Assembly: GCA_903929355.1 (NCBI GenBank)
Contig: CAIYUN010000025.1
Span: 1-64,000, forward strand
Length of the DNA: 64,000 nt
Source: an uncultured Opitutaceae bacterium
GTDB taxonomy: Bacteria > Verrucomicrobiota > Verrucomicrobiia > Opitutales > Opitutaceae
Direction: 5' to 3'
Part shown: positions 29,159-48,607 of the stretch, piece by piece
Layout: every line of letters begins with the position of its first letter
Numbering within the stretch: position 1 is the stretch's first letter
The notes under the pieces: model-generated
Database searches by the model: none
What the model saw: the letters and a program-made list of their open reading frames with translations, nothing else
Told to the model about the DNA's origin: nothing
Program-made: the position numbers and the translations under genes

Positions 29159-29191
29159 GCACCAAGAACCAAGCACGCAGCACCAAGAACC

Positions 29192-29888: not shown

Positions 29889-29893
29889 CGACC

Positions 29894-30505: not shown

Positions 30506-32028
30506 AAAAGGCTTTTCAAAAGGCGGCCAAGAAAGCCCGGCGCGCGATTGCGGTCGGCGCGGCCATCGCCGTGGCCACCGGCGGCCTGGTGCCCAACGCG
30601 GTCGCGACGGCGCACGCGCTGGTGAACTACCGCAAATACCAGGAAAAGGTCTTCTGGGATCACGAGACCAAGACGATGGTCATCCACTGGTCGCGCCAGA
30701 TCGGCAAGAGCTACACGCTCGCCGGCTGGGCGGTGGACCGGCTGCTCAAGAATCCCGGCCGGCTCGTGACCGTGCTCTCCAACTCGCGGGCCAACGGCAA
30801 CGAGTTTGTGCTCAAATGCCACGAGATCTGCCGCCGGCTCGGCCAGGCGGTCGAGTTGGACAGCAACTTCGAGCAGCTCAACGGCCGCGTGGACCTGAGC
30901 GAGGACATGAAGTTCGACATGATGCGGGGCGAGGTCCGCGTCGTGGTCGAGGGCAAGCCCGGCCGCATCCTGGTGCTGGCGGCCAACCCGCGCACGGCGC
31001 GCGGTTTCTCCGGCGACCTCATCCTGGATGAATTTGCGTTTCACGAGGACTCGCAGGGCATTTGGGAGGCCGCCGAGCCGATCATTTCCAGCAACCCCGA
31101 TTTCCTCTGCCGCATCGCCAGCACGGGCAACGGCAAGCGGAACATGTTTTACCAGCTCATCAGCGAGGGCCGCATCCCCTACTACCGGGTGCGCCGGTCG
31201 GACGCATGGGCCTCGGGCGAGATCAAGATCTACTCGGCCATCAACGGCAAGGAGATCACGCCCGACGAGGCGCGCAAGCAGGCCAGCGACAAGCGCGCCT
31301 ACGACCAGAACTACGAGTGCAAGTTCAACGACGAGGCCGGCGCGCTGCTCACCCAGGAGCTGATCAACCTCGCCCAGCGCGAGGGCGTCGAGATCGAGAG
31401 CCAGCACTGGAGCGAGGCCACCATCGAGCGCCTGCGGGCCATCACGGTGGGCGAGCTCTACCTCGGGCAGGACTTTGCCCGCGTCGGCGATCTGAGCGTC
31501 CAGACCGTGCTGCTCAAGCACGGCCAGTTGCTGCGGGTGGTCGGCATGCTGGAGATGGCCGACATGCGCACGCCGGCCCAGCAGGCCGAGCTCAAGAAGA
31601 TCTGCACGCTGCCCCGGTTCCGGGGCGCGGAGCTGGACATGACCGGCAACGGCCTCGGCCTGGTGGAGTATGCCCAGGAGGAGGATTGGGGCCGCAACAA
31701 CGTGCGCGGGGTGCAGTTTGCCAGCACCGAGCCGATTTCGACCCGGCTGCGGTCGGATGGGAAGAAAGGCGAGAAAGCCCCGGTCACGGAGATCATGGCG
31801 ACGGAGATGCTCGGGGTCTTTGAGGACAAGCGCATCGAGATCCCGATGGACGCCCGGCTGCGGGACGACCTGCGGAAGCCGGAGAAGATCGTGAGCCCCA
31901 GCGGCCGGGTGAGCATCGCGGCCGTGCGCGACGTGGCTGGCCACGCCGACCGCTTCTGGTCCATCGCCCTGGCCATCCGGGCGGCGGGGCGCAACTACGG
32001 CGTCCCCTTCACCTCCACCCTTTGCTGA
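30502..32028 (+). CDS. Terminase large subunit (Mu gp28-like)
   Basis: Packaging motor: ATPase plus nuclease, 508 residues. The Walker A-like loop is SRQIGKSYT (64-72), Walker B is LILDEFAF with D176/E177, and the coupling motif follows in ASTGNGKRNMF. The RNase-H-like nuclease domain starts near YLGQDFARVGDLSVQ with its first metal-binding Asp. In Mu-like phages, packaging proceeds into flanking host DNA after transposition. The hydrophobic N-terminus (VGAAIAVATGGLVPNAVA) is unusual for a terminase; a later start near residue 42 is possible. Confidence 0.9.
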   Translation: MKKAFQKAAKKARRAIAVGAAIAVATGGLVPNAVATAHALVNYRKYQEKVFWDHETKTMVIHWSRQIGKSYTLAGWAVDRLLKNPGRLVTVLSNSRANGNEFVLKCHEICRRLGQAVELDSNFEQLNGRVDLSEDMKFDMMRGEVRVVVEGKPGRILVLAANPRTARGFSGDLILDEFAFHEDSQGIWEAAEPIISSNPDFLCRIASTGNGKRNMFYQLISEGRIPYYRVRRSDAWASGEIKIYSAINGKEITPDEARKQASDKRAYDQNYECKFNDEAGALLTQELINLAQREGVEIESQHWSEATIERLRAITVGELYLGQDFARVGDLSVQTVLLKHGQLLRVVGMLEMADMRTPAQQAELKKICTLPRFRGAELDMTGNGLGLVEYAQEEDWGRNNVRGVQFASTEPISTRLRSDGKKGEKAPVTEIMATEMLGVFEDKRIEIPMDARLRDDLRKPEKIVSPSGRVSIAAVRDVAGHADRFWSIALAIRAAGRNYGVPFTSTLC

Positions 32029-32030
32029 CC

Positions 32031-32405
32031 ATGGGCCCCTACCACGCCATTCCTTTCGATTTCCGCCGTTTGGCCGCTCCTACGGTCATGCCGGGTGCCG
32101 TTTCGTCCAAAACAAGGGGCTTAAGGCGGCTTAAGACCTGTTTTACAGCGTCTCTAAACCACCTTCCGGGCCTCAAACCCGGCGACCGCCGCACTGACGA
32201 CAGGACAGCGCCGGCCGGTGCCCCCATGGTGGCACCTGGTCATTTTCAGCCGGGAAGCGATAAGGCCGCGTTCCCGGCCCAAGCTGCCGGCCGGTGTCTG
32301 GTGGCCGCCGCGACGGCGGCGTTCCTGGTTCTTGGTTCTTGGTTCCTGGTTCCAACCAAGCACCAAGCACCAAGCACCAAGCACAGCCAGGGAGGTGCCG
32401 CGTGA
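32031..32405 (+). CDS. Small protein containing ACCAAG repeats, unknown function
   Basis: A 124-residue frame starting TGA-CC-ATG after the terminase and ending in a GTGA overlap with the portal start, the two junction styles used by real genes of this phage. It encodes MGPYHAIPFDFRRLAAPTVM, then a basic region and a C-terminal part translated from inverted ACCAAG repeats (LVLGSWFLVPTKHQAPSTKH). No family recognised. It may be a genuine small gene or merely an open repeat-filled spacer. Confidence 0.4.
   Translation: MGPYHAIPFDFRRLAAPTVMPGAVSSKTRGLRRLKTCFTASLNHLPGLKPGDRRTDDRTAPAGAPMVAPGHFQPGSDKAAFPAQAAGRCLVAAATAAFLVLGSWFLVPTKHQAPSTKHSQGGAA
32330..32394. repeat. Inverted block of ACCAAG heptads before the portal gene
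   Basis: GGTTCTTGGTTCTTGG units are followed by CCAAGCACCAAGCACCAAGC units, so the block can fold into a long hairpin. It ends about 5 bases before GGGAGGTG, the ribosome-binding site of the portal gene. Confidence 0.85.
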
Positions 32406-34744
32406 AGCCGCGCCTTTTCGACCGCCTGTCTGCCGGGTTCGCCGGCCTGGCACGCGGCAAGTCCCTGGCCGCTTTCTCCGCCGCCTTCATGCGGGGCGAC
32501 GATGTCATGGAGCGCCCGGCCCGCGATGCCCTCACCCGGCCCTACCTCCAGTCCGCCTGGGTGCGCGCCGCCGTCGAGCACGTCGCGGGCGAGATCGCCG
32601 GCCGCAACCTGTGCTTCTTTGCGGGCGACACCGAGTTTGAGGGCGATCCCGCCTTTGCCGCCTTCTGGGCCGCGCCGGCGCTGGGCCCCAAGACGCTCGC
32701 CGCGACCCAGCCGCGCCTGCCGCTCGGCGAGGTGCTGCACCAGCTCGCCGCCTGGATCGCCCTGGAGGGCGAGTTCTTCCTGCTCTTCGACGACACCTGG
32801 GCGCTGGCCGAGCTGCGCCGCAACCCGGCCGCCCTCTCGCCGTTCATCATCGCCAATCCCAAGCGGGTGCGGCTCATCGTCCAGTCCGGCCAGATCGAGG
32901 GCTATGAGTATGTGGATGCCTCCGGCTACCGCACCGTCTTCCTGCCCGAGCAGGTCATCCACTACAAGAGCTTCAACCCCTACGACTGGTGGCGCGGCGC
33001 CGGCGCGCTGGCCGCCGCCCACATCGCCGCCGAGGGCGCGTTCTCCACCGGGGTCTATATCCGCGACCTCATGTGGAACAACGGCGACCAGGGCTTCATC
33101 GTCATCGGCAAAAATGGCGTGGCCGACGACAAGCAGCGCGAGCAGATCGTGAGCGACCTCCGGGCCAAGCGCGCGGCCCTGCGCCGTGGCATCCCCAAGG
33201 ATCTGTTCCTCACCGGCGACATCACGGTGGATCACCCGCCCGAGCGCGCGGCCTCGGCCGAGCTCATGGACAGCATGAGCCTCTCCCACCAGGAGGTGTT
33301 CATCGCCTTCGGCGTGCCGCCCTCGATGTGCGAGGTCAAGGCCAGCTACTCCATCGGCAAGGATTCAGACTACTACCAGCTCATCATCCGCACCTGCCGG
33401 CCGAAGGGCATCAAGATCTGCGGGGCCCTGGCCACCGTGGCCGGCCGCATGGTGGCCCTCGCGCTCACGGCCGAGCTGGATTGGAACGAGCACCCCGTGA
33501 TGGTCGAGGTGCGCAACGGCCGCATCGACTCCGGGCTCAAGCTCTGGGGTGCCGGCATGCCGATGGAGCAGGTCAACGACTACCTCGGCCTCGGCATGGC
33601 CGAATATCCCGGCTGGGAAATCGGCTACCTGCCGTTCAATGTTGCCCCGGCGGTGGATCCCATGGGAGCTGCAGCGACCTCGCCGCAGACCGATCCCGCG
33701 CTCGCCGAAGGCGACACCGAGCAGCCCGACTCGCAGCCCGAGGAAGAAGACGACGAGGTCAAGACCCTGCGCCTCCTGGTGCTGGCGCGGGCCAAAGCCA
33801 ACCGCCCGGACTGCACCAAGATCTCCGCTGCTCCTGGAGCTGCGGCGACCCCGCCGCAGTCAGATGCCTTCGCCGCCTTTGAATGCCGCTGTCACGCCCA
33901 ATGGGATTTCACCGAGGGCCGCGCCGCCGTCGCGCAACGCGCCGATCGTCCCGCGCGGGAGCTCGCCCAATGGCGCGACCTCATGGCCAAGCGCCGCGCG
34001 ACAGTCAAGTCCTTCAAGTCCGCCTTTGGCCGCGTGCTCATGCAGGCGCGCGTCGAGACCCTCCGCCACCTGGAGACCTGGTCCGCGAAGTCCGCCACGC
34101 CCGAAACCAAGAACGAAGCACCAGGAACCACGAACAAGGCTGGCGCAGCCAGCCACCTCCTCTTCGATCTCACCAAGTTCACCCTCGGCTTCAACACCGC
34201 CATGGAGAACAACCAGAAGACCGGCCTCGACACCGCCGGCACGCAGATGCTGGCCGAGCTCGGTCTCGACGACCCGTTCAAGCTGCCCCCGGCCGAGGTC
34301 CTCGCCTTCCTCGCCGCGCGCAAGAACAAGCTCTCCGGCGTGCCGCAAGAGGTCTATGATCGCCTCAAGGCTCAGTTGGAGGAAGGCCTCAAAGCCGGCG
34401 AGACCACCGCGCAGCTCTCCGCCCGCGTGAAGACCATCTTCAACGGCATCGCCGATGGCGATGCGCAGCGCATCGCCCTCACCGAGACCAGCGCCGTCTA
34501 TGGCGCCGGCCGCGCCGCCGCGATGGAGCAGGCTGGCGTGCAGTGGAAGCAGTGGCTCACCAGCGGCAATGCCAACGTGCGCGCCGCCCACCGCGATGCC
34601 AACGGCCAGACCGTCGCGGCCGACGAGCCCTTCATCGTGGATGGCGAGGAGCTCTCCTATCCCGGCGACGATGCCGGCAGCGCCGGCAACGTCATCAACT
34701 GCCACTGCGTCAGCATCGCCGTCGCCACCGGTCCGAAGGAATAA
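32402..34744 (+). CDS. Portal protein fused to a MuF-type minor head protein
   Basis: A 780-residue fusion. Residues 1-425 are an HK97-type portal (IAFGVPPSMCEVKASYSIGK is the diagnostic late portal segment), the ring through which DNA enters the head. An acidic linker (430-460) leads to a helical region and then a Phage_Mu_F/SPP1 gp7-like domain (about 640-775) with ALTETSAVYGAGRAAAMEQA and the metal-like signature ending NVINCHCVS. In Mu these are separate gp29 and gp30. Residues 569-580 are encoded by ACCAAG repeats, marking the linker. GTG start at 32402 is set by GGGAGGTG just upstream. Confidence 0.85.
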   Translation: MKPRLFDRLSAGFAGLARGKSLAAFSAAFMRGDDVMERPARDALTRPYLQSAWVRAAVEHVAGEIAGRNLCFFAGDTEFEGDPAFAAFWAAPALGPKTLAATQPRLPLGEVLHQLAAWIALEGEFFLLFDDTWALAELRRNPAALSPFIIANPKRVRLIVQSGQIEGYEYVDASGYRTVFLPEQVIHYKSFNPYDWWRGAGALAAAHIAAEGAFSTGVYIRDLMWNNGDQGFIVIGKNGVADDKQREQIVSDLRAKRAALRRGIPKDLFLTGDITVDHPPERAASAELMDSMSLSHQEVFIAFGVPPSMCEVKASYSIGKDSDYYQLIIRTCRPKGIKICGALATVAGRMVALALTAELDWNEHPVMVEVRNGRIDSGLKLWGAGMPMEQVNDYLGLGMAEYPGWEIGYLPFNVAPAVDPMGAAATSPQTDPALAEGDTEQPDSQPEEEDDEVKTLRLLVLARAKANRPDCTKISAAPGAAATPPQSDAFAAFECRCHAQWDFTEGRAAVAQRADRPARELAQWRDLMAKRRATVKSFKSAFGRVLMQARVETLRHLETWSAKSATPETKNEAPGTTNKAGAASHLLFDLTKFTLGFNTAMENNQKTGLDTAGTQMLAELGLDDPFKLPPAEVLAFLAARKNKLSGVPQEVYDRLKAQLEEGLKAGETTAQLSARVKTIFNGIADGDAQRIALTETSAVYGAGRAAAMEQAGVQWKQWLTSGNANVRAAHRDANGQTVAADEPFIVDGEELSYPGDDAGSAGNVINCHCVSIAVATGPKE

Positions 34745-34753
34745 AACCAGCTC

Positions 34754-34787
34754 GAAGCACCAAGCACCAAGAACAGATTTCCCACCC
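34754..34787. promoter_or_regulatory. Repeat-plus-leader module before the prohead protease gene
   Basis: GCACCAAGCACCAAGAACAG is followed by ATTTCCCACCC and the ATG at 34788. The same order, ACCAAG units then (ACGGT)ATTTCC then a short pyrimidine-rich stretch, precedes four other late genes. There is no Shine-Dalgarno sequence. Confidence 0.6.
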
Positions 34788-35483
34788 ATGAAAACTCCCC
34801 AGCTCAACTCCCGCACCGTCCGCGCCTTCGACTGCGTGCCCAAGGTCCTCAGCGCCGCCGATGGCACGGTTGATTTCGTCGCGTCCGACGAGTCGCTCGA
34901 CAGCTACCGCGAGATCGTGCGCGTCAACGGCTGGCAGTTCAACCGCTTCCAGAAAAACGCCCCGTTCGTGGACAGCCACGACTACAGCTCCATCGAGAAA
35001 CTGCTCGGCCAGGTCACGTCCTGGCGCGTCGAGGGCAAGCAGCTCGTCGAGACGGTCAAGTATGACCTCACCGCCGGCGGCCTGGGCGAGAAAGCCTTCC
35101 GCCTGGTCAAGGATGGTTTTCTGCGCGCGGTCTCGGTCGGCTTCATCCCGGTGGCGATGGCCACGCGGTATGACAGCAACCCGGCGTCCTTCCAGCAGCA
35201 GATCGCCGAGCTCGGCCTCGATGCCGGCACCGCCTCGCAGCTCCGCGCGGTCTATTTGAAGCAGGAGCAGATCGAGCTCAGCCAGTGCGTCATCGGGGCC
35301 AACCCCGCCGCCCTGGCCAAAGCCTACAAGGGCGGCTGCCTGACCGATCAGGACTTGGAGCAACTTTCCGTCATGTTCGCGAAATCGCAAACCACCAGCG
35401 CAGCCGAAGTCTCCGGGGACGCCGCGCGGGTCAAACCCCGGACGAAACTCGCCCTCCTGATGGCAATCCAGGCGCACCTCTGA
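34788..35483 (+). CDS. Prohead protease, HK97 family
   Basis: A 231-residue serine protease (Peptidase_S78) that matures the procapsid. The catalytic His64 lies in FVDSHDYSSIEKLLG and Ser116 in FLRAVSVGFIP, matching HK97 gp4 (His65, Ser114) in spacing. Located between portal and capsid genes as in HK97-type phages, not as in Mu, whose protease/scaffold (gpI) is unrelated in arrangement. The C-terminal 70 residues are variable and may act as a scaffold remnant. Confidence 0.88.
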   Translation: MKTPQLNSRTVRAFDCVPKVLSAADGTVDFVASDESLDSYREIVRVNGWQFNRFQKNAPFVDSHDYSSIEKLLGQVTSWRVEGKQLVETVKYDLTAGGLGEKAFRLVKDGFLRAVSVGFIPVAMATRYDSNPASFQQQIAELGLDAGTASQLRAVYLKQEQIELSQCVIGANPAALAKAYKGGCLTDQDLEQLSVMFAKSQTTSAAEVSGDAARVKPRTKLALLMAIQAHL

Positions 35484-35517
35484 GCGCCTCACCAAAAACA
35501 AAATCAGAATTCATCCC

Positions 35518-36900
35518 ATGCAAAAGACCCTCAATCGCTTTCTCCAGAAAGCCAACGTGGTGTGCCTCTGGCTCGCCGCTATCACCGCCTGCGCGGCCTA
35601 CAACCTGTTTCAATCGCTCGGCTTTCACATGTGCCCGCTGCACCTTGGCGTGGTCGCCGAAGACGGCATCGACGCCCAGATCCTCAAGGCCGTGGGCGGC
35701 ATCAATGACCGCCTCAAGCAACTCGAAGAGATCGAGAAGGCCGTCAAGAAAAATGCCGCCGATTACGACCTCGTCACCAAGGTCGTCGGCGAGGTCAAGC
35801 TGGAGCTCGAAACGTTCCGCAAATCCCAAATCGGCATCAAGCGCGGCATCACCCGTCCTGGCGAGGTCGGTGAGGAATGCGCCCGCTTTCTTGGCGGTCT
35901 GCTCCTCAAGGCCGGGCTCAATCAGGAGAAGTGGCAGGGCCGCCAAAAGGATTTCGCGGAATCCGAGATGAAAAACATCCTCGGCATCAACACCAAGGCG
36001 GCTCTCACGTCCTCCGACATCCCGCTGCCCACCGAGTTCAACGGCGACGTGGTCGAACTGGTCTATCAATACGGCCAGGGCCGCAAGCTCGCCACCGTAT
36101 TCCCGATGGGTGCCCTCACCGTCAAGCTGCCGAAGCTGACGACCGACACCACGTTCGGCCTGATTGCGCAGTCCGGTAGCGTCACGGAGAAAAGCCCGCA
36201 GGTCGCGTTCGTGACGTTCACCGCCGAAAAGTTCGGCGGCCTCATCCGTCTGCCTCAGGAAATCGACGAGGATTCCATCGTCGCGATGGGCCAGTTCCTC
36301 GCCCGCTACGCCGCGCGCAACCTCGCCCTCGTCGAGGATGTGCAGGTCTTCACCAGCACGGGGGCCGATAGCGGGGCCAACGGCGCCGGCGCCGGCATGC
36401 TCACCGCCGCCAACACCGATTCGGCCACCTATCCCCTCGGCGGCACGACGAGCGGGGGCAAGACTAAGGCCAGCCAGGCCGTCCTGGCCGACTTCCGCGC
36501 CCTGCGCCAGCAGGTCACGGGCGCGGTCCTGGGTCGGGCGAAATACATGTTGCACCCGACGTTCGAGGCGCTGCTCGTCTCGTTCAACACGTCCGCGACT
36601 GTCACGCCCTACCAGCGCGGCAACGGTGCCTTTGGCGCCGGCGCCACGCTCGACGGCTTCCCCATCGAGTGGGTCAACGCCATGCCCGCGTTCACCACGA
36701 GCGCGGTCGTCTCCACCGGCTACGTCCTGTTCGGCGACCCGTCGTTCCAATACCTCGGGCTGCGCAGCGGCATCCGGTTCGACACCAGCCGCGAGGCCGC
36801 GTTCACGACCGACGAGATCCTCGTGCGCGCCCTGGAGCGCATGACGGTCGGCTACATGGCCACCAAGGCCTTTGCGGTCCTCCAGACCGACGCGAGCTAA
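35518..36900 (+). CDS. Major capsid protein, HK97 fold
   Basis: A 460-residue precursor. The first 130 residues contain a hydrophobic segment (VVCLWLAAITACAAYNLFQS) and a coiled coil (INDRLKQLEEIEKAVKKNAA), the delta/scaffold region that the protease encoded upstream would remove. From about residue 150 the HK97 fold follows: TSSDIPLPTEFNGDVVELVY, the E-loop-like GSVTEKSPQVAFVTFTAEKF, and the P-domain segment DFRALRQQVTGAVLGRAKYM. The hydrophobic N-terminus is odd for a scaffold domain. Main shell protein of the head. Confidence 0.88.
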   Translation: MQKTLNRFLQKANVVCLWLAAITACAAYNLFQSLGFHMCPLHLGVVAEDGIDAQILKAVGGINDRLKQLEEIEKAVKKNAADYDLVTKVVGEVKLELETFRKSQIGIKRGITRPGEVGEECARFLGGLLLKAGLNQEKWQGRQKDFAESEMKNILGINTKAALTSSDIPLPTEFNGDVVELVYQYGQGRKLATVFPMGALTVKLPKLTTDTTFGLIAQSGSVTEKSPQVAFVTFTAEKFGGLIRLPQEIDEDSIVAMGQFLARYAARNLALVEDVQVFTSTGADSGANGAGAGMLTAANTDSATYPLGGTTSGGKTKASQAVLADFRALRQQVTGAVLGRAKYMLHPTFEALLVSFNTSATVTPYQRGNGAFGAGATLDGFPIEWVNAMPAFTTSAVVSTGYVLFGDPSFQYLGLRSGIRFDTSREAAFTTDEILVRALERMTVGYMATKAFAVLQTDAS

Positions 36901-36968
36901 ACCCGGACCGGAAGTTCTAGCCCTGCCCCGCGCGACGGCGCGCGAGGCAGTTTAGAACCGCCACTCCC

Positions 36969-37727
36969 ATGAAAAACAAAATCCACCACCACCTCCTCGC
37001 GCCTCTGCGCCTTTGCGCCCTTGCGTTGCTCTCCGTCTCTGGGATCCACGCGCAGTCCTACGTCAACTCCAAGGCCGCCGAGGCCGGCCACGTCCTCAAG
37101 GCCGCGCCCGGCGTCGTCTACACCGTCTCCGGCTTCAACAACGCGGCCGCGCAGTTCGTCCAGCTCGTGGACAGCGCCACCATCCCCGCGCCGGTCGCCG
37201 CCCAGGTCACGACGATCTCGTTCTCCGCCGTCAACCCGATCGCCCTCTCCGGGCAATACCTCACGCTCAACACCACGACCGGCAGCTATTACGCCTGGTT
37301 CAACTACAACGGCGGCAGCACCAATCCCGCGCCCGCCGGCTACACGACCAGCATCAGCGTGACCTGCACGACCAGCAGCACGGCGACACAGATCGCCAGC
37401 GCCTTCGCCACCGCCGCCTCGATCTCGTCGGTCTTCCAGGCCACGGCGAGCGGCACGACCGTCACGCTCACCAACAGTCAGACCGGCAGCGTCTCCGCGC
37501 CCACGCTCGGCACGACGACGAGCATCAGCGAGGGCCTCACCACGACGGGAGTCACGGCCGCGATCCCGGTCGTCACGCTGTCGGTCTCCGCGACCGGCAG
37601 CTTCACCTTCCCGCTACCGCAGCAAGGTATGCCCTTCTACAACGGCATCACGGTGGTCAACTCCTCCACGGCCGCGACGACGAGCAGCGGCTCGGCCAAC
37701 TGCCTATTCACCGGCTTCGTGCAATGA
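36969..37727 (+). CDS. Putative exported or decoration-type virion protein
   Basis: A 252-residue protein rich in Thr, Ser and Gly with all-beta character. It begins with what looks like a Sec signal peptide (LLAPLRLCALALLSVSGIHA, cleavage after HAQ). The body (TTISFSAVNPIALSGQYLTL ...) resembles Ig-like or fibre-shaft repeats. Place directly after the capsid gene suggests a head decoration or fibre protein, but a signal peptide is unexpected for a virion protein assembled in the cytoplasm. No family recognised. Confidence 0.65.
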   Translation: MKNKIHHHLLAPLRLCALALLSVSGIHAQSYVNSKAAEAGHVLKAAPGVVYTVSGFNNAAAQFVQLVDSATIPAPVAAQVTTISFSAVNPIALSGQYLTLNTTTGSYYAWFNYNGGSTNPAPAGYTTSISVTCTTSSTATQIASAFATAASISSVFQATASGTTVTLTNSQTGSVSAPTLGTTTSISEGLTTTGVTAAIPVVTLSVSATGSFTFPLPQQGMPFYNGITVVNSSTAATTSSGSANCLFTGFVQ

Positions 37728-37846
37728 TCCCAAGCCCCGTCAAACGCCCGCTCCCCAAACCCGTCGTCACCCGCCCGATGCCTGTTCCGACAACCAAGAA
37801 CCAAGCACCAGGAACCAAGCACGGTATTTCCGCCCTTCACCCATGA
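37724..37846 (+). CDS. 40-residue proline-rich frame containing ACCAAG repeats
   Basis: Starts in an ATGA overlap with the gene before and ends in an ATGA overlap with the connector gene, so the junctions are those of a translated gene. Product MIPSPVKRPLPKPVVTRPMP followed by a repeat-encoded stretch (TTKNQAPGTKHG). Its main role may be to carry ribosomes across the repeat to the next start rather than to make a functional protein. Confidence 0.35.
   Translation: MIPSPVKRPLPKPVVTRPMPVPTTKNQAPGTKHGISALHP
37790..37842. promoter_or_regulatory. Repeat-plus-leader module before the connector gene
   Basis: CAACCAAGAACCAAGCACCA, then GGAACCAAGCACGGTATTTC and CGCCCTTCACCC directly before ATG 37843. 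Contains the full ACGGTATTTCC leader element. Confidence 0.65.
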
Positions 37847-38499
37847 ACGCCGGCCTCTCCAACCTCGCCACCCTCAAGTCCTGGCTCCTGCCCGCCTCGC
37901 TGCTGGCCGTGACCGACTACGATGCGCGCATCACCGCCCTCGGCCTCGCGGTGGGCGGGGCGATTGAGAAGGCGTGCAACCGCAAGTTCGCCTGGATGAC
38001 CGGCGATGTTTTCCAGTGCAATGCCGACCGCACCTCCATCGTGCTGCCGCGCTTCCCGTTCTCGACCGCCAACAATGGCGTGACCGCGCTGGCCATCCGC
38101 ACCGATATGATCGCCGGCTTCGTGGACCAGGGCAACCCGATGAACCTCATCCTCGACATCGGCTGGGAGAGCGGCCTGGTGGATTTCGGCGTCTGGCAGG
38201 GTCCGCTCCACGCCCGGCTGCAGTTCACCTACGACGGCGGCTATTTCTGGGAGCAGCTTGAGCCGGCCGACATGGGTTATCCCACCACGCAGCCCGCCGG
38301 GTCCACCGCGTTGCCCACCACGCTCCTGGGCGCCTTCCGCCTCCAGGTCGCCGAAGAGTGGAAGCGGGCCGACAAGACCGGCCTGGAGATCACCCGCGAC
38401 CCCGAGAAGCAGCACACCGTGCGCGGCCTCGACGAGGATCCGCTCCTCCCGCTCGTCACCCGCATGATCGCCCCCTACGTCCGCTACGCGATGACCTGA
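37843..38499 (+). CDS. Head-tail connector (gp6-like) protein
   Basis: A 218-residue protein downstream of the capsid gene. Residues 1-50 (LATLKSWLLPASLLAVTDYD ... GAIEKACNRKFAW) have the helical pattern of head-tail connector proteins of the HK97 gp6/Phage_connect family, followed by a beta insertion and a C-terminal helix ending in VTRMIAPYVRYAM. It would form the ring below the portal. Assignment from pattern and synteny. Confidence 0.7.
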   Translation: MNAGLSNLATLKSWLLPASLLAVTDYDARITALGLAVGGAIEKACNRKFAWMTGDVFQCNADRTSIVLPRFPFSTANNGVTALAIRTDMIAGFVDQGNPMNLILDIGWESGLVDFGVWQGPLHARLQFTYDGGYFWEQLEPADMGYPTTQPAGSTALPTTLLGAFRLQVAEEWKRADKTGLEITRDPEKQHTVRGLDEDPLLPLVTRMIAPYVRYAMT

Positions 38500-38501
38500 T
38501 T

Positions 38502-38678
38502 ATGCATCCCCATATCAAAATCACCCTCCGCGACGATCGCGGGAACGTTGTCAGCATCGAGGCCGACGACCGCGAGAACACCTATCTCGAAGGTGCCGTA
38601 AAGACCCTTAAGCCCCTCGTTTTGGAACTGCTCGCCGCGCTGCGCGCCAAGAACGAAGCACCAAGCACCAAGAACTAA
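38502..38678 (+). CDS. Small late protein ending in a repeat-encoded tail
   Basis: Fifty-eight residues: MHPHIKITLRDDRGNVVSIE, then a helix (VKTLKPLVLELLAALRA). The last 10 residues (AKNEAPSTKN) are encoded by ACCAAG repeat DNA, as if repeat insertion had moved the stop codon. Starts 2 bases after the preceding stop. Unknown function. Confidence 0.55.
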   Translation: MHPHIKITLRDDRGNVVSIEADDRENTYLEGAVKTLKPLVLELLAALRAKNEAPSTKN

Positions 38679-38692
38679 GAACGGTATTTCCG
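38648..38692. promoter_or_regulatory. Repeat-plus-leader module before the tail-completion gene
   Basis: AAGAACGAAGCACCAAGCAC, CAAGAACTAAGAACGGTATT and TCCG lead straight into ATG 38693. ACGGTATTTCC is present in full. Confidence 0.65.
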
Positions 38693-39259
38693 ATGCCCAC
38701 CCAGATCAAGATCGACACCAATGCCGAGGCCATCATGGCCCGGCTGCGCGCGGCCCCGCCGCGCATGGTCGCGGCGATCGCGTCGGCGCTGGATCTCCAG
38801 AACCAGCTCTCGGTCGGCATCATTGACCGGGAGCGGCTGTCGCAGCGCGGTCCCACCACGCTGGGGGTCGTCACCAACCGCCTGCGCGGCTCCATCCGCG
38901 CCAGCAAGGCCGTGGCCAATGGCACCGCGATCACCAGTGCGATCGGCAGCAACGTCGTCTATGCCGCCGTCCACGAATACGGCATTGACGCGATGGTCAC
39001 GGTGCGGGAGCACACGCGCAAGAACCCCCACGCGGGCAAGCCCGGCTCGGCCGCCGTCGTCACCCTCGACCGCAAGGGCCACATCATCCGCCGCGCCGCC
39101 CGGCCGCCCGCGCCGGCGACCGTCACGATCCGCGCGCACCAGATGCACATGAAGCTCCCGGCCCGCGCCTACATCCGCGGCGTGCTGGAGCAGCGGGCCC
39201 CACAATACTCCCTGGCCATCTCCGATGCCATCCGCGCCACATGGGAGGGCGCCAACTGA
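38693..39259 (+). CDS. Virion morphogenesis / tail-completion protein (HK97 gp10- or Mu gpG-like)
   Basis: A 188-residue basic protein. Residues 12-50 (EAIMARLRAAPPRMVAAIAS) are helical, then come SNVVYAAVHEYGIDAMVTVR and a C-terminal LPARAYIRGVLEQRAPQYSL. The conserved VYAxxHEYG motif is characteristic of phage virion morphogenesis proteins and HK97 gp10-type neck proteins. It would complete the head-tail joint. Next gene starts as TGA-CC-ATG. Confidence 0.78.
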   Translation: MPTQIKIDTNAEAIMARLRAAPPRMVAAIASALDLQNQLSVGIIDRERLSQRGPTTLGVVTNRLRGSIRASKAVANGTAITSAIGSNVVYAAVHEYGIDAMVTVREHTRKNPHAGKPGSAAVVTLDRKGHIIRRAARPPAPATVTIRAHQMHMKLPARAYIRGVLEQRAPQYSLAISDAIRATWEGAN

Positions 39260-39261
39260 CC

Positions 39262-39969
39262 ATGAGCATCCTGGAACAAACCGAGCTCGCGATCGCCGGC
39301 CGCCTGGCGGCCGATTCCTACTTCGCGCAGATCCCGATCGTGGTCATGCGGCCGCGCGCCAGCGGCACCTTTGCCGAGATCCAATCCCGCATCGATGCCG
39401 CGCTCAACGGCACGCTCGCGCAGGCCGGCGGCGTGGGCGCGGCCGTCACGGTGCTCATGCCGATCGGCGACTGCGAGAAGCCCAATCTCCCCGGCCCGCA
39501 GCTCACGTTTGTCTATACCGTCCGCGTCCAGGAGCTCGTGCAGCTCAACATGTCGCCGGCGGGCACACGCAAGAGCGCCGAGGAGATCGCCCTCTACGCC
39601 CTCGGGCTCCTCCACCAGTGCTCGCTCAACGGCCGCCAGGTCCTCACGGCCGAGGCGCACACCCTTACGCCGTCGCTCGATTTCGCCCCGCGCCTCACCT
39701 ACGACCTGCGCCTGCGCCAGCTCGGCGCCCTGCCGCAGCCCGTGCGCTGCGCGGCGCCGGTCATCGCCCTGTCCGGCGACACTGCCACCCTCACCTGTGC
39801 CACCGCCGGCGCCGCCATCTACTACACGACCGATGGCAGCTACCCGTCGCCCGCCAACGGCACGCTCTACAGCGCACCGGTCACGGCCGCCAGCGGCCTC
39901 ACGATGCTCGCCGCCGCCAGCCATTCCGGCGTCCAGCAGTCCGCCGTCGCCGCCGCCCTCTTCCCGTAA
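39262..39969 (+). CDS. Tail terminator-like protein with C-terminal chitobiase-type domain
   Basis: A 235-residue protein. Residues 1-155 (MSILEQTELAIAGRLAADSY ... LTFVYTVRVQELVQLN) have the alpha/beta pattern of tail terminator proteins (Mu gp37-like). Residues 160-235 form a beta domain with CATAGAAIYYTTDGSYPSPA and LYSAPVTAASG, the signature of the chitobiase/beta-hexosaminidase C-terminal (CHB_HEX_C) fold. Such domains on virions bind or decorate surfaces. The start follows the previous stop as TGA-CC-ATG. Confidence 0.72.
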   Translation: MSILEQTELAIAGRLAADSYFAQIPIVVMRPRASGTFAEIQSRIDAALNGTLAQAGGVGAAVTVLMPIGDCEKPNLPGPQLTFVYTVRVQELVQLNMSPAGTRKSAEEIALYALGLLHQCSLNGRQVLTAEAHTLTPSLDFAPRLTYDLRLRQLGALPQPVRCAAPVIALSGDTATLTCATAGAAIYYTTDGSYPSPANGTLYSAPVTAASGLTMLAAASHSGVQQSAVAAALFP

Positions 39970-39978
39970 TTTTCCGCA

Positions 39979-40027
39979 ACCAAGCACCAAGAACTCAGAA
40001 CCAAGAACGGTATTTCCCACCAATCCC
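39979..40027. promoter_or_regulatory. Repeat-plus-leader module before the tail tube gene
   Basis: CAACCAAGCACCAAGAACTC, AGAACCAAGAACGGTATTTC and CCACCAATCCC precede ATG 40028. It repeats the ACCAAG / ACGGTATTTCC / CCACC order. Confidence 0.65.
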
Positions 40028-40951
40028 ATGAGCGCTCCACAAATCATCGCCGGTCCCGCCGTCATCCAGTTTGGCGGCAACTCCTATTATTCCGAGGGCG
40101 ACATCACCCTCAACCTCAACCGCGAGACGTTCAACGTCGTCACCGCCATGGGCGGCAAGATCGACGAGCGGCTCGTCGCCCAGATGGTCGAGGTCAAGTT
40201 CAAGTGCGCGGGCGCGCTCGACACCGTGGCCAAGTATCTGCCCTACGTCGTGGCCTCGATCGGCAAGCTCCTCATCAACCAGGCCTCGCCCACGCCGCTC
40301 ACCATCTGGGGGCTCGACGGGGTCAAGAACATCTGGAGCAACGCCTTCATCTCCGCGCTGCCCAAGTTCACCCTCGCGGCCAACAAGAGCGCCCTGGGCG
40401 ACATGACGATCACCGCCCTCGGCGATCCCACCAAGACCCTGGTGGACGCGGCCGCGTGGAACACCATCTCCAGCGCCGCCCTCACCGATGCCACGTTCGA
40501 CGACACCAAGCTCGTCACCAGCGCCTACACCGCCGCCTGGGGCGGCTCGCCCTTTGCCTCCATGGTGGCCGAGGACGATTTCTCCTTCGAGCCCGTCATC
40601 GGCATCGCGATGAAGAAGGTCGCCAATTACGGCAACGTCAACGCCATGCTCACCGACCTCACGGTCGGCTGCCGGTTCAAGCCCGCCAACCTCACCGAGG
40701 CGCAGATGTGGACGCTCCTCAACCTCCAGGGCAGCGGCGCGATCCAGCCCGGCATGTCGGTGTCCGGTGGATCCACGAGCCTGGTCATCACCGGCGGCAC
40801 GGCCACCTTCACCATGCCCAATGCGGGCCCCAAGAGCGCCGCGACCGCCTACGGCCTGGCCCCGCTGCGCCAGGGCGAGGTGCTCTTCGTCAACCGCAAG
40901 ACCTGGACCGCCGGCGTCGTCAACGCCCCGCTCACGATCGCTTTCAGCTGA
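40028..40951 (+). CDS. Major tail tube protein
   Basis: A 307-residue protein lying between the tail terminator and the tape-measure region. Early beta strands (AVIQFGGNSYYSEGDITLNL) and the later VGCRFKPANLTEAQMWTLLN match a tail-tube beta barrel; the C-terminal third is Thr/Gly-rich and may be an extra Ig-like domain. No sheath gene accompanies it, consistent with a non-contractile tail. Abundant structural protein, inferred. Confidence 0.75.
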   Translation: MSAPQIIAGPAVIQFGGNSYYSEGDITLNLNRETFNVVTAMGGKIDERLVAQMVEVKFKCAGALDTVAKYLPYVVASIGKLLINQASPTPLTIWGLDGVKNIWSNAFISALPKFTLAANKSALGDMTITALGDPTKTLVDAAAWNTISSAALTDATFDDTKLVTSAYTAAWGGSPFASMVAEDDFSFEPVIGIAMKKVANYGNVNAMLTDLTVGCRFKPANLTEAQMWTLLNLQGSGAIQPGMSVSGGSTSLVITGGTATFTMPNAGPKSAATAYGLAPLRQGEVLFVNRKTWTAGVVNAPLTIAFS

Positions 40952-40962
40952 CGCTGAACGCC

Positions 40963-41041
40963 GTTCTTCGTTCTTCGTTCTTGGTTCTTGGTTCTGCAAC
41001 CAAGCACCAAGCACCAGGAACCAAGCACGGTCTTCCTTTCC
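40963..41041. promoter_or_regulatory. Inverted ACCAAG block with variant leader
   Basis: GTTCTTCGTTCTTCGTTCTT and GGTTCTTGGTTCTG are followed by CAACCAAGCACCAAGCACCA, GGAACCAAGCACGGTCTTCC and TTTCC, then GTG 41042. The two orientations can pair into a hairpin between the tube gene stop and the next start, so it could terminate or process the transcript as well as lead the next gene. Confidence 0.65.
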
Positions 41042-41890
41042 GTGAAGATTGAAATCTTAGCCACACCCGGCGACCTCTCGCCCTTTGTCCTCTTCCCCGG
41101 CGGGCTGGATTCGCCCGAGGAGCTGGAGGGCTCGGCGTCGGACCAGCTCCAGCTCATCGAGCTGGCGCGCTCGGCCGAGGTCACGCCCTTCAACCGCGGC
41201 AACCGCCGCCACGAGCACCGCCTGCAGCGCACGATCGACTACGGGAGCGTGGCGGCGGCCGAGAACGCCATCTGGTCGCACCCGCGCGCCGTGCCGACCG
41301 GCAGCTATGTGCGCATCACGTCCGAAAATGGGCCGCCCTATGTGCGGCTCCTCACCAACGCGACCGTCCACGCCTTCTCCTACCGGCAGATCGGCACCTC
41401 CATCGTCTGGAAATACACCATCACCCATGGGCTGGACGTTGACCAAACCAACACCTACCTGGCGCCGGTCGCCGGCGTCACGCCGCTCTACGGCATCGTG
41501 CGGATCATCACGACGGGCTTTGCCTACTGGATGCAGATTCTGGACAACGTGGCGGGCTCTTGGTGGACCATTTGGTGGGTCAATGGCGTGTTCTCCACCA
41601 GCACGGCCGCGATGCCCGCTCTGATCGGCTGCCGGATCAACGGTGGCTTTCTCCAGCTCTTGGACAGTGTGACCGGCGGCTTCCGCGACATTTGGTGGGC
41701 GGCCAGCGTGCTGCAATGCGGCCCGGTGGATAACACTGCGGCCGATGGCGCGCCTCCGACCGCCTTCCGGCTCAGGCTCAGCGCAGGGTCCTACCTGATC
41801 GAGCTGTCAGATTCGGCCAATCCCGGCCAGTTCCGCGCCCTGCTGCTCTCCTCCACCGGCGCGGCTATCGCCGGCCCGCTCGTCTCCTGA
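41042..41890 (+). CDS. Tail structural protein, unknown subtype
   Basis: A 282-residue protein from a GTG directly after the repeat leader. The first 120 residues (VKIEILATPGDLSPFVLFPG; GGLDSPEELEGSASDQLQLI) are followed by several similar Trp-rich segments (YWMQILDNVAGSWWTIWWVN, then FLQLLDSVTGGFRDIWWAAS and YLIELSDSANPGQFRALLLS), three tandem copies of a beta motif. Such repeats are typical of fibre or baseplate proteins. Located before the fibre gene. Confidence 0.65.
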   Translation: MKIEILATPGDLSPFVLFPGGLDSPEELEGSASDQLQLIELARSAEVTPFNRGNRRHEHRLQRTIDYGSVAAAENAIWSHPRAVPTGSYVRITSENGPPYVRLLTNATVHAFSYRQIGTSIVWKYTITHGLDVDQTNTYLAPVAGVTPLYGIVRIITTGFAYWMQILDNVAGSWWTIWWVNGVFSTSTAAMPALIGCRINGGFLQLLDSVTGGFRDIWWAASVLQCGPVDNTAADGAPPTAFRLRLSAGSYLIELSDSANPGQFRALLLSSTGAAIAGPLVS

Positions 41891-41899
41891 CTTTCCACC

Positions 41900-44596
41900 A
41901 TGAAAACCACCCTCGCCAAACTCATCCTTGTAGGGGCGTTGCTCGCCGACGCCCTCAGCGCGCAAATCTTGTTTCCGACGCCCTCCACCCAGGCCGTCAC
42001 CACCGACAGCGTCGGCGCACTCATCACCAACCTGCACACCACGACGGGCCTCGGCGTGATGGATCTCCGCGTCGGCACCGTGACCATCGGAGGGCAAATC
42101 ATCCTCAACAGCCTGAGCCTGAGCGGCGGCCTTTCGGCCTCAGTGAGCGGCGGCATCCTCTGGCTCAACAGCACTGGCGGAGGTGGCGGTGGCGGCGGCA
42201 CGCTGAGTCTTTCCGGCGATGTCACGGGCACCTCCACAATCTCCGGCACGCTCGCGGCCACGCTGGCGACCACGGGCGTGACGGCGGGTAGCTACACCAA
42301 CACCAACCTAACGGTGGACGCCAAGGGCCGGATCACGGCCGCCGCCAACGGCTCGGGCGGCGGCGGTGGTGGCACGCTCAGCTTGTCGGGTGATGTCACC
42401 GGCACTTCCACGATTTCCGGCACGCTGGCCGCCACCTTGGCGACCACGGGTGTTTCTGCCGGCACCTACGGCACTGCAACGCAGTCGGCGGTTGTCACGA
42501 TCGATGCGAAGGGCCGAGCAACCTCGGCCAGCAACGTGACCCAGACGCCGGACATGAACCAGGCGATCAACAAGCCTTCGCCCAATGTCACCGTTTCGCT
42601 GTCGGGTGACATGACCGGATCGGCCACCGGAACCCTGACCAACCTCGGCAACGTCGGCCTCACCATCTCGGGCACGCTGGCCAACACGGCCGTCACGGCC
42701 GGCAGCTACGGCACCGCGACGCAGTCGGCCCATGTGACATTTGATGCCAAAGGACGGGCGACGGGCGCGAGTAATACGACCATCGCGCTCGATGGAGCAC
42801 AGGTCGCCGCCGGCACCGTGACAATCTCCCGGCTGCCGGTGGGCACGTCAGGCAGCACGGTGGCCGCAGGCAACGACAGCCGCATCACGGGCGCGCTCCA
42901 GGCGGCCAACAACCTCAGCGACTTGGGCAGCCTCGGTGCCGCCCGCAATAACCTGAATATCCAATATCCGGCCGGGTCGCGCTTCCTGTTCTTGGCGACG
43001 GCGAGCGGCGGGGTGACTGTCACGAGCTCCTTTAACTCGGCGGTCTTTGCGGCCACGACCGACCCGGTGGGGTATTTCGGAAACTCCAACGTGGGGGCCT
43101 CGGGCACGTATTCTACCGGCTATGTCTCCCCGGTCAGCGGCCCCGTCTATTTCGGTTTCAACGTAGCGTCGACCGGCGGCGGCACCTCGGGCTCCCGCGT
43201 CATCGGAGCCCTCTACGAAAACGGGAACCTCGTAGCGGCTCCGTTCGACTGGGAGCTCCCGGTCAGCGGCACCGACACCCACTATTCCACCGGCATGGTC
43301 TGGAACGCGACTGCGGGCAAGCGTTACCAATACAAATTCAACACGGGCACCGGCAGCATCCAGCTTGACGCCGGCTCGACGTTTTACGCCCAGCAGCTCT
43401 CGTCGCTCACCGCCCGGTGGACCGCCAGCAAGACCTTCACCAAGCTGGCGGCAGCCTATACGACCTCCTGCGCGTTCACCTGCACGGGAACATTCAGCGG
43501 CCAGACGGGGTATTACCCCGACACCGGCGGCGTGACCTATGCGATCATGGACATCCGGGACACGGCCGCCGCCTTCCGCTACGGCCCGGCCAATTTCACC
43601 GCGACCACCATGAGCAACGTGATTGCCATGTATGGTGCCGCCCAGGTTGCCCAGCACGCGGCGAGCGGCGGCTATGGTGTGCCAGAGCTGGTGTTCCCGG
43701 ATTCGCATTTCGGAGTCTATGGTGGGACCACCGTGGGGGCGGGAACCACGCCCAACCTCGACGGGATTTATGATTGGATCGACATGATCTACTCCCACTA
43801 CCTCAAAACCGGCAGCGCGACTCTCTACACGACCTACACGACGTCGATCAGCAACGGGCTGGCGAGTAACACCATTGATTCCCACCTGGTGAAGATCGCC
43901 ACCGGGTCAATGGGGCCGCCGGCGTGGGGCTTCCAAGATTCGGAAGACATCCGGGGGCACGACCTTTTTACCTCGGTCGAGCGGTATCGGGCCTATCAGG
44001 AAATCGCCACGATGGTGGCGGCCAACAGCGGCGATCCGAGCACCTGGAACGCGGAGCTTCCGCTCATCACCGCCGCCTTGGACGCCAACCTCTTCGACGG
44101 CGCATCGGGGTTGTTTCTGACGTGCGACACCTCCACGCAGTCAAACAATATGCCGAACATTCCGGGCAGTTGCTACGCGGTCTACATCGGCGCGGCCAGC
44201 ACGACGAGCAGCGCGGCCATCGTCGCTGCCTGCCACAACGGTTACACCGGCAACGCGGGCGACCTGGCCGGCCACGGCTTCACCTTCGGCGGTCAGGTTC
44301 GCCACATGCCACGGGGGACCTATTTCACCACGTTCCGGAGCAGCCCCACGGCCGATACCTACCAGGACGGGGGCTATTGGATGTTCTTCTCCGGCTGGTA
44401 TGCCTACTGCCTGGCGAAGAACGATGTGACGGAAGCGGAGGAGTTCCTGAACGAGGCCGCCAACTTTTCCCTCGCCGTGCCGGCCGTGGGGGCGACGGAG
44501 AGTTACGGCCCTCAAGCGAACTCCTATCTGGGGGCGAACCAGTATCTCGACAGCGTGTTCGGCCCCCTCGGTTATTACGGCGGCATCCAGCGCTGA
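41900..44596 (+). CDS. Tail fibre with C1q-like and six-hairpin glycosidase-like domains
   Basis: An 898-residue receptor-binding candidate. A signal-peptide-like start (KLILVGALLADALSAQ) is followed by a fibre shaft (90-345) built from repeats: LSLSGDVTGTSTISGTLAAT twice, and AGSYGTATQSAHVTFDAKGR-type units. PVGTSGSTVAAGNDSRITGA closes the shaft. Residues 355-505 look like a trimeric C1q/TNF-type jelly roll. From about 506 an alpha-helical region with YAIMDIRDTAAAFRYGPANF, WGFQDSEDIRGHDLFTSVER and DGGYWMFFSGWYAYCLAKND resembles an (alpha/alpha)6-barrel glycosidase, perhaps degrading a host polysaccharide. The catalytic acids are not assignable by eye. Confidence 0.75.
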   Translation: MKTTLAKLILVGALLADALSAQILFPTPSTQAVTTDSVGALITNLHTTTGLGVMDLRVGTVTIGGQIILNSLSLSGGLSASVSGGILWLNSTGGGGGGGGTLSLSGDVTGTSTISGTLAATLATTGVTAGSYTNTNLTVDAKGRITAAANGSGGGGGGTLSLSGDVTGTSTISGTLAATLATTGVSAGTYGTATQSAVVTIDAKGRATSASNVTQTPDMNQAINKPSPNVTVSLSGDMTGSATGTLTNLGNVGLTISGTLANTAVTAGSYGTATQSAHVTFDAKGRATGASNTTIALDGAQVAAGTVTISRLPVGTSGSTVAAGNDSRITGALQAANNLSDLGSLGAARNNLNIQYPAGSRFLFLATASGGVTVTSSFNSAVFAATTDPVGYFGNSNVGASGTYSTGYVSPVSGPVYFGFNVASTGGGTSGSRVIGALYENGNLVAAPFDWELPVSGTDTHYSTGMVWNATAGKRYQYKFNTGTGSIQLDAGSTFYAQQLSSLTARWTASKTFTKLAAAYTTSCAFTCTGTFSGQTGYYPDTGGVTYAIMDIRDTAAAFRYGPANFTATTMSNVIAMYGAAQVAQHAASGGYGVPELVFPDSHFGVYGGTTVGAGTTPNLDGIYDWIDMIYSHYLKTGSATLYTTYTTSISNGLASNTIDSHLVKIATGSMGPPAWGFQDSEDIRGHDLFTSVERYRAYQEIATMVAANSGDPSTWNAELPLITAALDANLFDGASGLFLTCDTSTQSNNMPNIPGSCYAVYIGAASTTSSAAIVAACHNGYTGNAGDLAGHGFTFGGQVRHMPRGTYFTTFRSSPTADTYQDGGYWMFFSGWYAYCLAKNDVTEAEEFLNEAANFSLAVPAVGATESYGPQANSYLGANQYLDSVFGPLGYYGGIQR

Positions 44597-44606
44597 CGAC
44601 CTGACC

Positions 44607-44906
44607 ATGCGCCGCCTCGCCCTCATCCCCGTCCTGCTCTTCCCTGGCCTTGGCCTCGCGATCTCCGGGGCGCGTCCCGGCCGCGTCGGCATGGTCCTCC
44701 GGCTCCTTGCCCTCGGGTTCGCCCTTGCCGAGGCCTTGCATGTCGCCGACTGGCTGATCGGACTCGGCCGCATCCACCTCGCCGGTGCTGCGCTGGGCTG
44801 GCTCCTGCCTCTCATCTTCGGCGTGGCTTCCCGCCGCGCCAAAGGCCCTGCAACCGGCGCGCGCGGTTTGTCCCGACAAATCCCGCGCGCGCCGGCCAGC
44901 TCGTAA
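44607..44906 (+). CDS. Small membrane protein next to the fibre gene
   Basis: Ninety-nine residues with three hydrophobic segments (LALIPVLLFPGLGLAI, VGMVLRLLALGFALAEALHV, LAGAALGWLLPLIFGVAS) and a basic tail. No family recognised. It could be an alternative holin or a membrane modifier acting during infection; it stands between fibre and tape-measure genes. Confidence 0.55.
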   Translation: MRRLALIPVLLFPGLGLAISGARPGRVGMVLRLLALGFALAEALHVADWLIGLGRIHLAGAALGWLLPLIFGVASRRAKGPATGARGLSRQIPRAPASS

Positions 44907-44909
44907 CCC

Positions 44910-46502: not shown

Positions 46503-46504
46503 CC

Positions 46505-48589: not shown

Positions 48590-48607
48590 CGGCGCCGCTT
48601 CCGGCGC

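Follow-up and report, generated by a model that had tools for sequence, protein, structure and literature searches.

Many structural genes of a prophage are preceded by short leaders built of tandem seven-base units (heptads) of the type ACCAAG(C/A), and we consider it rather probable that these leaders are heptanucleotide tandem repeats of a gene-edge kind, born by slippage, copied between leaders and harmless or mildly useful. The prophage lies in contig CAIYUN010000025.1 of assembly GCA_903929355.1, deposited as an uncultured Opitutaceae bacterium. The window, that is, the whole stretch of DNA analyzed, comprises 64,000 nucleotides (nt) of this contig, here called C25; the host genome has 3.8 Mb in 91 contigs. 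The late genes of the prophage run from about 27.3 to 49.7 kb. The same genome holds two more prophages with related terminases, on contigs C65 and C81. A reading of the window from its letters alone (the sequence-only reading) had described heptads with a common tail before five late genes and heptads followed by GGAGGTGCCGC before two others, and had proposed a function in translation initiation, mRNA processing or recombination between late modules.

Heptads and tail in the late leaders

ACCAAG occurs 83 times in the window, while 20.96 occurrences are expected, and none of 100 shuffles reached that count. The heptads described before the genes at 34788, 37843, 38693, 40028 and 41042 are present and far above chance, and GGAGGTGCCGC stands directly before 27304 and 32402, as had been reported. 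The leader-bearing late genes are more numerous than the seven named: heptad leaders stand before ten late starts (27304, 27880, 29192, 32402, 34788, 37843, 38693, 40028, 41042 and 48641). The additions are 29192 and 48641 with ACCAAG units and 27880 with TCCAAAA units; the leftward gene at 24432 has a leader of this type as well. Gene starts were taken from an in-house simple codon-score caller rather than a published program. The caller missed the small gene at 27304, but a homologue of its protein, 54% identical, is encoded in the C81 sibling prophage. A small open reading frame (ORF) at 38502-38678 ends within the heptad array of the 38693 leader, and a variant heptad supplies its stop. 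Arrays of this sort may give rise to gene ends.

The common tail proved exact in part of the leaders only. The 11-mer ACGGTATTTCC is found without mismatch before three of the five named genes (37843, 38693 and 40028), whereas the tail at 41042 is the variant ACGGTCTTCCTTTCC, 0 bases from the start, and the degenerate tail at 34788, AACAGATTTCCCACCC, is similar only when a gap is allowed. With up to two mismatches, ACGGTATTTCC matched the window 15 times against 7.9 expected, a mild excess that one of 100 shuffles reached. In the whole genome there are four exact copies, three of them in the window leaders; the fourth, on contig C64, has no adjoining heptad. With up to one mismatch the 11-mer gave 36 genome-wide matches (29 in the reversed control), and ACCAAGNACGG gave 22 (20 in the control). 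Since both counts are near their controls, neither was retained as a genome-wide motif, and the tail is specific only in the context of an array. The non-random feature is thus the composite of heptads and tail, not the 11-mer alone.

Two further candidates were rejected. GGAGGTGCCGC, as a special repeated leader, gave 408 genome-wide matches with up to one mismatch and 550 in the control; before 27304 and 32402 it is simply an extended Shine-Dalgarno (SD) motif, complementary to the 16S 3' end. The composite ACCAAGNACGGTATTTCC, as a phage-wide signal, had 13 matches in viral contigs, none of them with heptad arrays on inspection. Read by eye, eight were copies of one lysozyme-like gene stretch, two were copies of another, and three were single. 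Viral contigs were also scanned for ACCAAGNACCAAGNACC; among the matches listed, no locus entered the analyses.

The leaders of 37843, 38693, 40028 and 41042 align as four heptads, some imperfect, followed by the tail, and their irregular units are partly in common. On this alignment they seem to be duplicates of a single cassette and not repeats that arose independently. When leaders of the window prophage were compared pairwise, 23 of 190 pairs, across 8 of 20 leaders, were alike at 18 or more of 24 bases, and shuffled leaders gave none. At least one such pair was found in 25 of 66 loci tested, the next highest count after the window being 5 of 190. Outside the window prophage, heptads followed by AACGGAATCCCCCC and an ATG stand at the host gene C17:21983. 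At the start of the 40028 homologue in C81, the protein of which is 25% identical, the same composite occurs, ACGGCATTTC / ACCAAGCACGGCATTTC.

The leaders were then viewed in their translation context. An SD-like motif precedes 17 of 300 host genes and 9 of the 253 sampled genes with gaps of at least 15 nt; prophage genes have such motifs more frequently (9 of 39). GGAGGTG precedes 27304, 32402 and some genes of the C81 prophage. Host leaders are C/T-rich, with C at position -1 in 69%, and TTTCC occurs in 34 of 253 host near-start stretches versus 17 of 253 farther upstream. By these figures, neither a start that lacks an SD motif nor a tail resembling TTTCC is unusual for this genome. The lack of an SD motif, which had been noted for the leaders, is the rule in this genome and so not a property of these leaders. 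The ten window leaders (476 nt) contain NTG (N, any base) 4 times on the sense strand versus 62 times on the antisense strand.

Five of the nine leaders folded (34788, 37843, 38693, 40028 and 29192) are little structured, at -1.9 to -13.6 kcal/mol. An inverse repeat just upstream of the heptads gives hairpins of -43.7 kcal/mol at 32402 and -36.6 kcal/mol at 41042, and the stretches of 27304 and 48641 also fold well (-38.1 and -18.2 kcal/mol), largely through stems outside the heptads. These folds bear on the proposal that intercistronic RNA hairpins formed by inverted heptad pairs end, protect or cut the polycistronic late mRNA. In gaps of at least 70 nt, 21 of 72 arrays had a reverse-complement match of at least 10 nt in their own gap, versus 1 of 72 when a different gap of the locus was compared, both arms of one inverted pair being counted separately. 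A consensus scan of 32000-50000 found 21 terminator-like sites where 10.7 are expected. One of them lies in the gap before 41042 (40956-40973, plus strand), and another, on the minus strand, in the leader of 34788. The array polarity described below, G-rich at stops and C-rich at starts, would suit two hairpin arms. However, among the five named leaders only 41042 has an inverted pair, 32402 belonging to the two others, and the full hairpins before 32402 and 41042 have no following T run. Inverted pairs would also result from template switching. As a general principle the hairpins were rejected, for array gaps are no more structured than array-free gaps (45 versus 120 gaps, p=0.27). We regard such hairpins as quite improbable as the explanation of the leaders. 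The proposed role in mRNA processing is plausible mainly at 32402 and 41042, where inverted heptads are predicted to form hairpins.

Host genome, related phages and array polarity

The heptad pattern ACCAAGNACC has 157 matches in the host genome, 20 of them inside the ~36.5-kb prophage, where 1.5 are expected. Host sites were surveyed in 40 fetched stretches, half of which were picked for holding such sites or sibling prophages. In these stretches 46 of 53 heptad sites are intergenic; 30 of the 46 face a start, 11 of them within 60 nt, and 16 face a gene 3' end, all within 66 nt of the stop. The heptad is a dispersed repeat of the host genome. Its placement is non-random, yet it is not specific to starts. 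One host locus (L284:9653-9748, contig C72) has a 96-nt run of ACCAAG-type heptads between two convergent genes. The ACCAAG unit is patchy: 5 of 57 relatives have it, and so do 10 of 141 genomes in the class, the own genome counted in both. The backwards-pattern controls for these two counts are not independent, because AACCAAG runs match the backwards pattern too.

The arrays could also be binding sites for a late transcription activator or another DNA-binding protein, three heptads spanning two helical turns. Arrays do cluster before late genes, and the prophage holds its 20 matches in agreement with this proposal, but arrays also follow stops and occur throughout the host. In 32000-50000, the region scanned, there are two sigma-70-like sites, close to the 1.3 expected, and neither is within a leader. 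We consider such sites hardly credible as the explanation.

The C81 sibling allowed a comparison of matching boundaries. The gap matching 29192 has 18 nt and no array (33 nt in the window), and the gap matching 41042 has 12 nt and no array (90 nt in the window); gene order is unchanged at both. The two prophages have part of the tail module in common, with 73% identity over residues 333-897 of the 41900 product and 58% over that of 46499. This comparison, the one usable, bears on the proposal that repeated leaders act as recombination linkers through which phages exchange late modules. Homologous sequence does stand at many gene boundaries of the window and at some of C81. Nevertheless, the step in identity falls inside gene 41900 and not at a heptad leader, and at the conserved boundary before 28856 there is a lone ACCAAG but no array. 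Moreover, each leader is only about 40 nt long and imperfect. Between the window and C81 no recombination between late modules was found at the leaders, and we consider the linker proposal very unlikely. The C65 sibling has mostly repeats other than ACCAAG heptads.

Relatives of the prophage were collected with the terminase as query, which gave 71 viral and 14 genome loci; with the capsid protein, no close relative was confirmed, either in 39 candidate stretches of viral contigs or in 5 further genomes from the genus. ACCAAGNACC matched in 6 of the 71 viral loci. One of these, L104, has a true array (L104:10051-10096, unit AACCAAG, 35 nt upstream of a start and about 9 kb past its terminase), while the others are lone or within genes; the 14 genome loci have a further lone match, which is also within a gene. 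The L104 array rules out the statement that relatives never use the ACCAAG unit. At syntenic boundaries other heptads were found: AAAACTG and TTCTTAA in L063, an ACTCAAG-like unit in L124, a GAAACT-like one in L107 and an AAATCCG-like one in L098. Other relatives, for example L061, have no array at the matching boundaries. The unit turns over between related phages, and the module is largely absent from them without a change in gene order (a true array in 1 of 71 viral loci; two array-free boundaries in C81). Many leaders of L074, L075, L076, L094 and L097 are A/C-rich and G-poor without being tandem arrays.

What is kept is the period: among intergenic arrays, period 7 is the leading one in the host, in this prophage and in the related phages. 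Period and polarity counts were made on the 76 loci of at least 9 kb (9 of the 85 loci are shorter); period counts keep near-duplicate loci, and polarity counts take duplicate gap sequences once. In the 56 closer phage loci, intergenic arrays numbered 91 with period 7, for which 0.1 are expected, 24 with period 9, 10 with period 8 and 5 with period 6. The period-7 arrays comprised 81 distinct sequences among the 91 and were found in 30 of the 56 loci. In a 400-kb sample of the host, intergenic arrays numbered 21 with period 7, 16 with period 8 and 8 with period 10, each other period from 5 to 13 having at most 1; in the phage loci and the host sample alike, the resampled expectation is at most 0.3 arrays for each period. 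The 20 more distant relatives have 7 intergenic period-7 arrays. Once discrete arrays were removed there was no lag-7 excess, and a diffuse seven-base grammar in the leaders is rejected.

These data bear on the proposal that heptads and pyrimidine tail form a translation-initiation element, at which ribosomes would load without an SD motif or an RNA-binding protein of the S1 or Csp type would attach. The leaders abut starts, are poor in NTG and in five of nine cases are little structured, and the TTTCC part of the tail resembles the normal start context of the host; an equivalent proposal was made for the TAACTGA repeats in the available portion of MacGregor 2015 (PMC4679880). On the other hand, arrays in phage relatives are as frequent after stops (94 of 678 stretches) as before starts (73 of 613), the C81 prophage manages without arrays at two matching starts, relatives mostly carry unrelated units, and 27304 and 32402 have an SD motif in addition to heptads. 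We hold a dedicated element of this kind to be unlikely. The NTG-poor, little-structured sequence fits an accommodated, open leader, and to this extent the suggested role in translation initiation agrees with the data; a function is not thereby demonstrated and stays unproven.

We found that the arrays have a polarity with respect to gene ends. The ratios given here cover arrays that lie within the set distance of a gene end and differ in their C and G content. In phage relatives, C exceeds G on the sense strand in 23 of the 27 arrays lying no more than 40 nt from a start, whereas of 39 arrays equally near a stop 26 have more G than C, 9 have more C than G and 4 are tied (start versus stop, Fisher 3e-6). 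The host sample gave ratios of C-rich to G-rich arrays of 4:0 at starts and 2:4 at stops. When phage relatives, the unbiased host sample and the window were pooled (108 arrays, 66 units), the ratio was 40:10 at starts and 17:37 at stops (Fisher 6.5e-7). The result was similar for the 82 arrays without any GGG or CCC (30:6 and 14:28) and for one array per unit and end (30:8 and 16:26). Only 1 of the 108 arrays, with four GGG or CCC runs, is capable of forming a G-quadruplex. Arrays within ORFs away from the edges have no polarity (9:7 and 5:4), and for periods 8-10 polarity is weak or absent (phage relatives, p 0.30; host, p 0.04). In phage relatives the polarity is absent from array-free gaps, with 157:129 before starts and 173:102 after stops. 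Array-free host gaps are already C-rich before starts (71:19) and balanced after stops (49:42), so that the start-side polarity of the host is partly plain composition. A slight start-side bias is possible if start codons in an array shifted the called start; arrays in ORFs near the 5' edge are few, 7 in all.

Decoy starts were counted in a set of 147 arrays, the host part of which was partly chosen for ACCAAG. On the start side, the sense strand is poorer in NTG in 50 and richer in 6 of 56 informative arrays, and where NTG is balanced there is no C/G bias (5:7). Avoidance of decoy start codons suffices to account for the start-side polarity.

The reading we favor, of slippage-born gene-edge repeats, would work as follows. 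During replication, slippage or template switching would create the arrays and alter their length. A cassette of roughly 40 nt, consisting of four heptads and ACGGTATTTCC, would have been copied among leaders of this prophage, the C81 sibling and one host gene; copying is the most likely source of the alike leaders. In a genome that rarely uses SD motifs, arrays would persist before starts in the C-rich orientation as open leaders, because this orientation has no start codon and little G. They are most likely harmless, or possibly of mild use. The observations do not require a dedicated signaling role, be it translational or in RNA processing.

Several points weigh against this reading. ACCAAG is 13-fold enriched in the prophage, above the expectation for a passive host repeat. 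One unit and a common 11-mer tail recur at unrelated genes, which slippage alone leaves unexplained, and among the leaders compared there is no intermediate of the supposed copying. The composite at the diverged 40028 homologue in C81 could reflect retention by selection. The two stop-side arrays of the window itself are C-rich (2:0), contrary to the rule, its start side being 4:0. Finally, the G-rich bias on the stop side remains where NTG is balanced (3 C-rich, 16 G-rich) and also in convergent gaps, at 0:16 in the set selected in part for ACCAAG and at 0:5 in the unbiased one. Since the stop-side bias exists without an asymmetry in start codons, avoidance of decoy starts is only part of the story.

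A more far-reaching reading is a unit-independent process common to Verrucomicrobiota and their transposable phages: a replication or repair enzyme would write and rewrite seven-base repeats at gene edges with a fixed polarity, the period, place and polarity being kept while the word changes by lineage and is homogenized within a genome. We regard such a process as possible but doubtful. If it were real, G-quadruplex formation, which is central in what has been published on the Xanthomonas and Nostoc repeats, would be incidental.

The prophage and the coordinates of its features

Judged by its sequence, this late operon belongs to a transposable B3/Mu-like prophage, with both a Mu-type transposase and a B3-like terminase. 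Phage B3 is transposable. The best phage match of the terminase has 31% identity, and the B3 terminase has 27.6%. Because oligopeptide ABC-transporter genes (9538-12776 and 49840-52135) flank both ends, the prophage is placed inside an opp operon. The host is probably a member of the Verrucomicrobiota; of the 14 genome-contig relatives of the terminase, 8 are labelled Verrucomicrobia/Verrucomicrobiia, 1 Opitutia and 1 PVC group. No tRNA genes were found in the window, and no Rfam family reached its gathering score within 13000-50500. Table 1 lists the positions of the features.

Table 1. Positions in the window of the prophage, two of its marker genes and the heptad leaders
Feature	Position	Strand	Remark
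Prophage, approximate extent	13201..49750		opp-type ABC-transporter genes on either side; ends placed from the flanking opp genes only
Transposase (PHROG 310) of transposable prophage	20922..22994	-	profile match, E 1.6e-8
Leftward leader, ACCAAGAACCAAGCACC with GAGCACGGTTCCCC tail, before minus-strand gene 24106-24432	24433..24520	-	
Heptad leader, 3 exact ACCAAG, then Shine-Dalgarno GGAGGTG directly before start 27304	27257..27303	+	sequence reading
Heptad leader, unit TCCAAAA x3, between stop and possible ATG 27880	27852..27879	+	start of gene caller, 27902
Heptad leader, 3 exact ACCAAG, before 29192	29159..29191	+	matching C81 gap array-free
Large terminase, related to phage B3 terminase	30502..32028	+	terminase profile matches
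Inverted heptad pair and GGAGGTGCCGC before portal-like gene 32402	32321..32401	+	GTTCCTG/GTTCTTG arm 32321-32353, ACCAAGC arm 32355-32384
Heptad leader, 2 exact ACCAAG and degenerate tail AACAGATTTCCCACCC, before 34788	34745..34787	+	gene matches head/protease profiles
Four heptads and exact ACGGTATTTCC, 11 nt to start 37843	37792..37842	+	sequence/alignment
Four heptads (2 exact, 2 imperfect) and exact ACGGTATTTCC, 1 nt to start 38693	38652..38692	+	
Four heptads and exact ACGGTATTTCC, 10 nt to start 40028	39978..40027	+	C81 homologue has composite too
Inverted heptad pair (CGTTCTT/GGTTCTT arm, then ACCAAGC arm) and ACGGTCTTCCTTTCC abutting GTG 41042	40962..41041	+	
Two exact ACCAAG and imperfect heptads, 3' of GC-rich stem-loop, before 48641	48610..48640	+	

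The leftward part of the prophage also encodes a C-5 cytosine DNA methylase (15860-17443, minus strand). Host DNA to the left of the prophage has a 37-bp tandem repeat in four copies at 4272-4419. Other short repeats, of period 8-10 (ATCCGTG/CACGGAT and ACTAATG/ATTAGTG), crowd the intergenic DNA of the host and were seen at 50868-52400 of the window and in L041.

Relation to known repeats

Tandem heptanucleotides dispersed in the genome are familiar from cyanobacteria as the STRR heptamers. Heptads before starts, and polarity, are in the literature already, with other units and in other phyla. Rehm et al. 2015 (PMC4692102), in the portion available, describe GGGAATC and GGGGA(C/T)T heptads in Xanthomonas and Nostoc, discuss their polarity in terms of quadruplexes and mention Calothrix heptanucleotides. 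The polarity reported here was detected before the comparison with that paper. As far as that portion goes, their repeats resemble ours in the seven-base intergenic unit, in the G-rich strand being antisense upstream of ORFs and sense after stops, and in inverted pairs, and theirs vary in length and sequence between close species. Their heptads prefer four units; in the window, four leaders have four heptads. An intergenic tandem unit and the polarity of C before starts and G after stops are thus found in our arrays, and quadruplex capacity is not. Each of their groups has one quadruplex-forming unit, in contrast to 66 units in the 108 arrays here, and theirs are reported in the same portion to be absent from two Xac and six Nostoc plasmids, whereas ours crowd a prophage and turn over between related phages.

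The TAACTGA repeats of marine Beggiatoaceae (PMC4679880), as described in the available text, are likewise direct heptads in forward orientation just before starts in genomes where SD motifs are rare; intergenic and stop-side copies are given for other lineages. The ten window leaders conform to this forward placement before a start, but in the 40 stretches only 11 of 46 sites do so within 60 nt, and 16 of 46 face a stop. Unlike TAACTGA, the unit here is ACCAAG(C/A), common to prophages and host, and has a recurring tail. The main text of MacGregor 2015, as available, contains no word starting with "phage".

A phage counterpart is the SAS/ESAS of cluster K mycobacteriophages (Pope et al. 2011, PMC3203893), in the accessible part of that account a repeat found ahead of many starts in the phage, in some cases with an upstream inverted repeat, the function of the SAS being unknown. 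The SAS is a fixed 13-mer with AGGAG, located in the non-structural half and nearly absent from the host, whereas the leaders described here are tandem heptads, mostly SD-free, before structural genes and also present in the host. In the leaders, read by eye and without a pattern search, there was no GGGATAGGAGCCC-like 13-bp site with an SD core.

In the open PMC literature, an incomplete collection, we found no description of heptad leaders in Verrucomicrobiota or their phages. As far as the literature searched goes, the polarity rule over many non-quadruplex units, the occurrence in prophages and the replacement of the unit at one boundary between related phages are new. Separate reports describe gene-edge heptads in giant sulfur bacteria, in cyanobacteria and in Xanthomonas, and the causes proposed differ, being a translation factor, a quadruplex and polymerase slippage. 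The comparison separates what needs explaining, namely the seven, the place and the polarity, from what is incidental, the word, and the related phages of one host make unit turnover testable on a short time scale.

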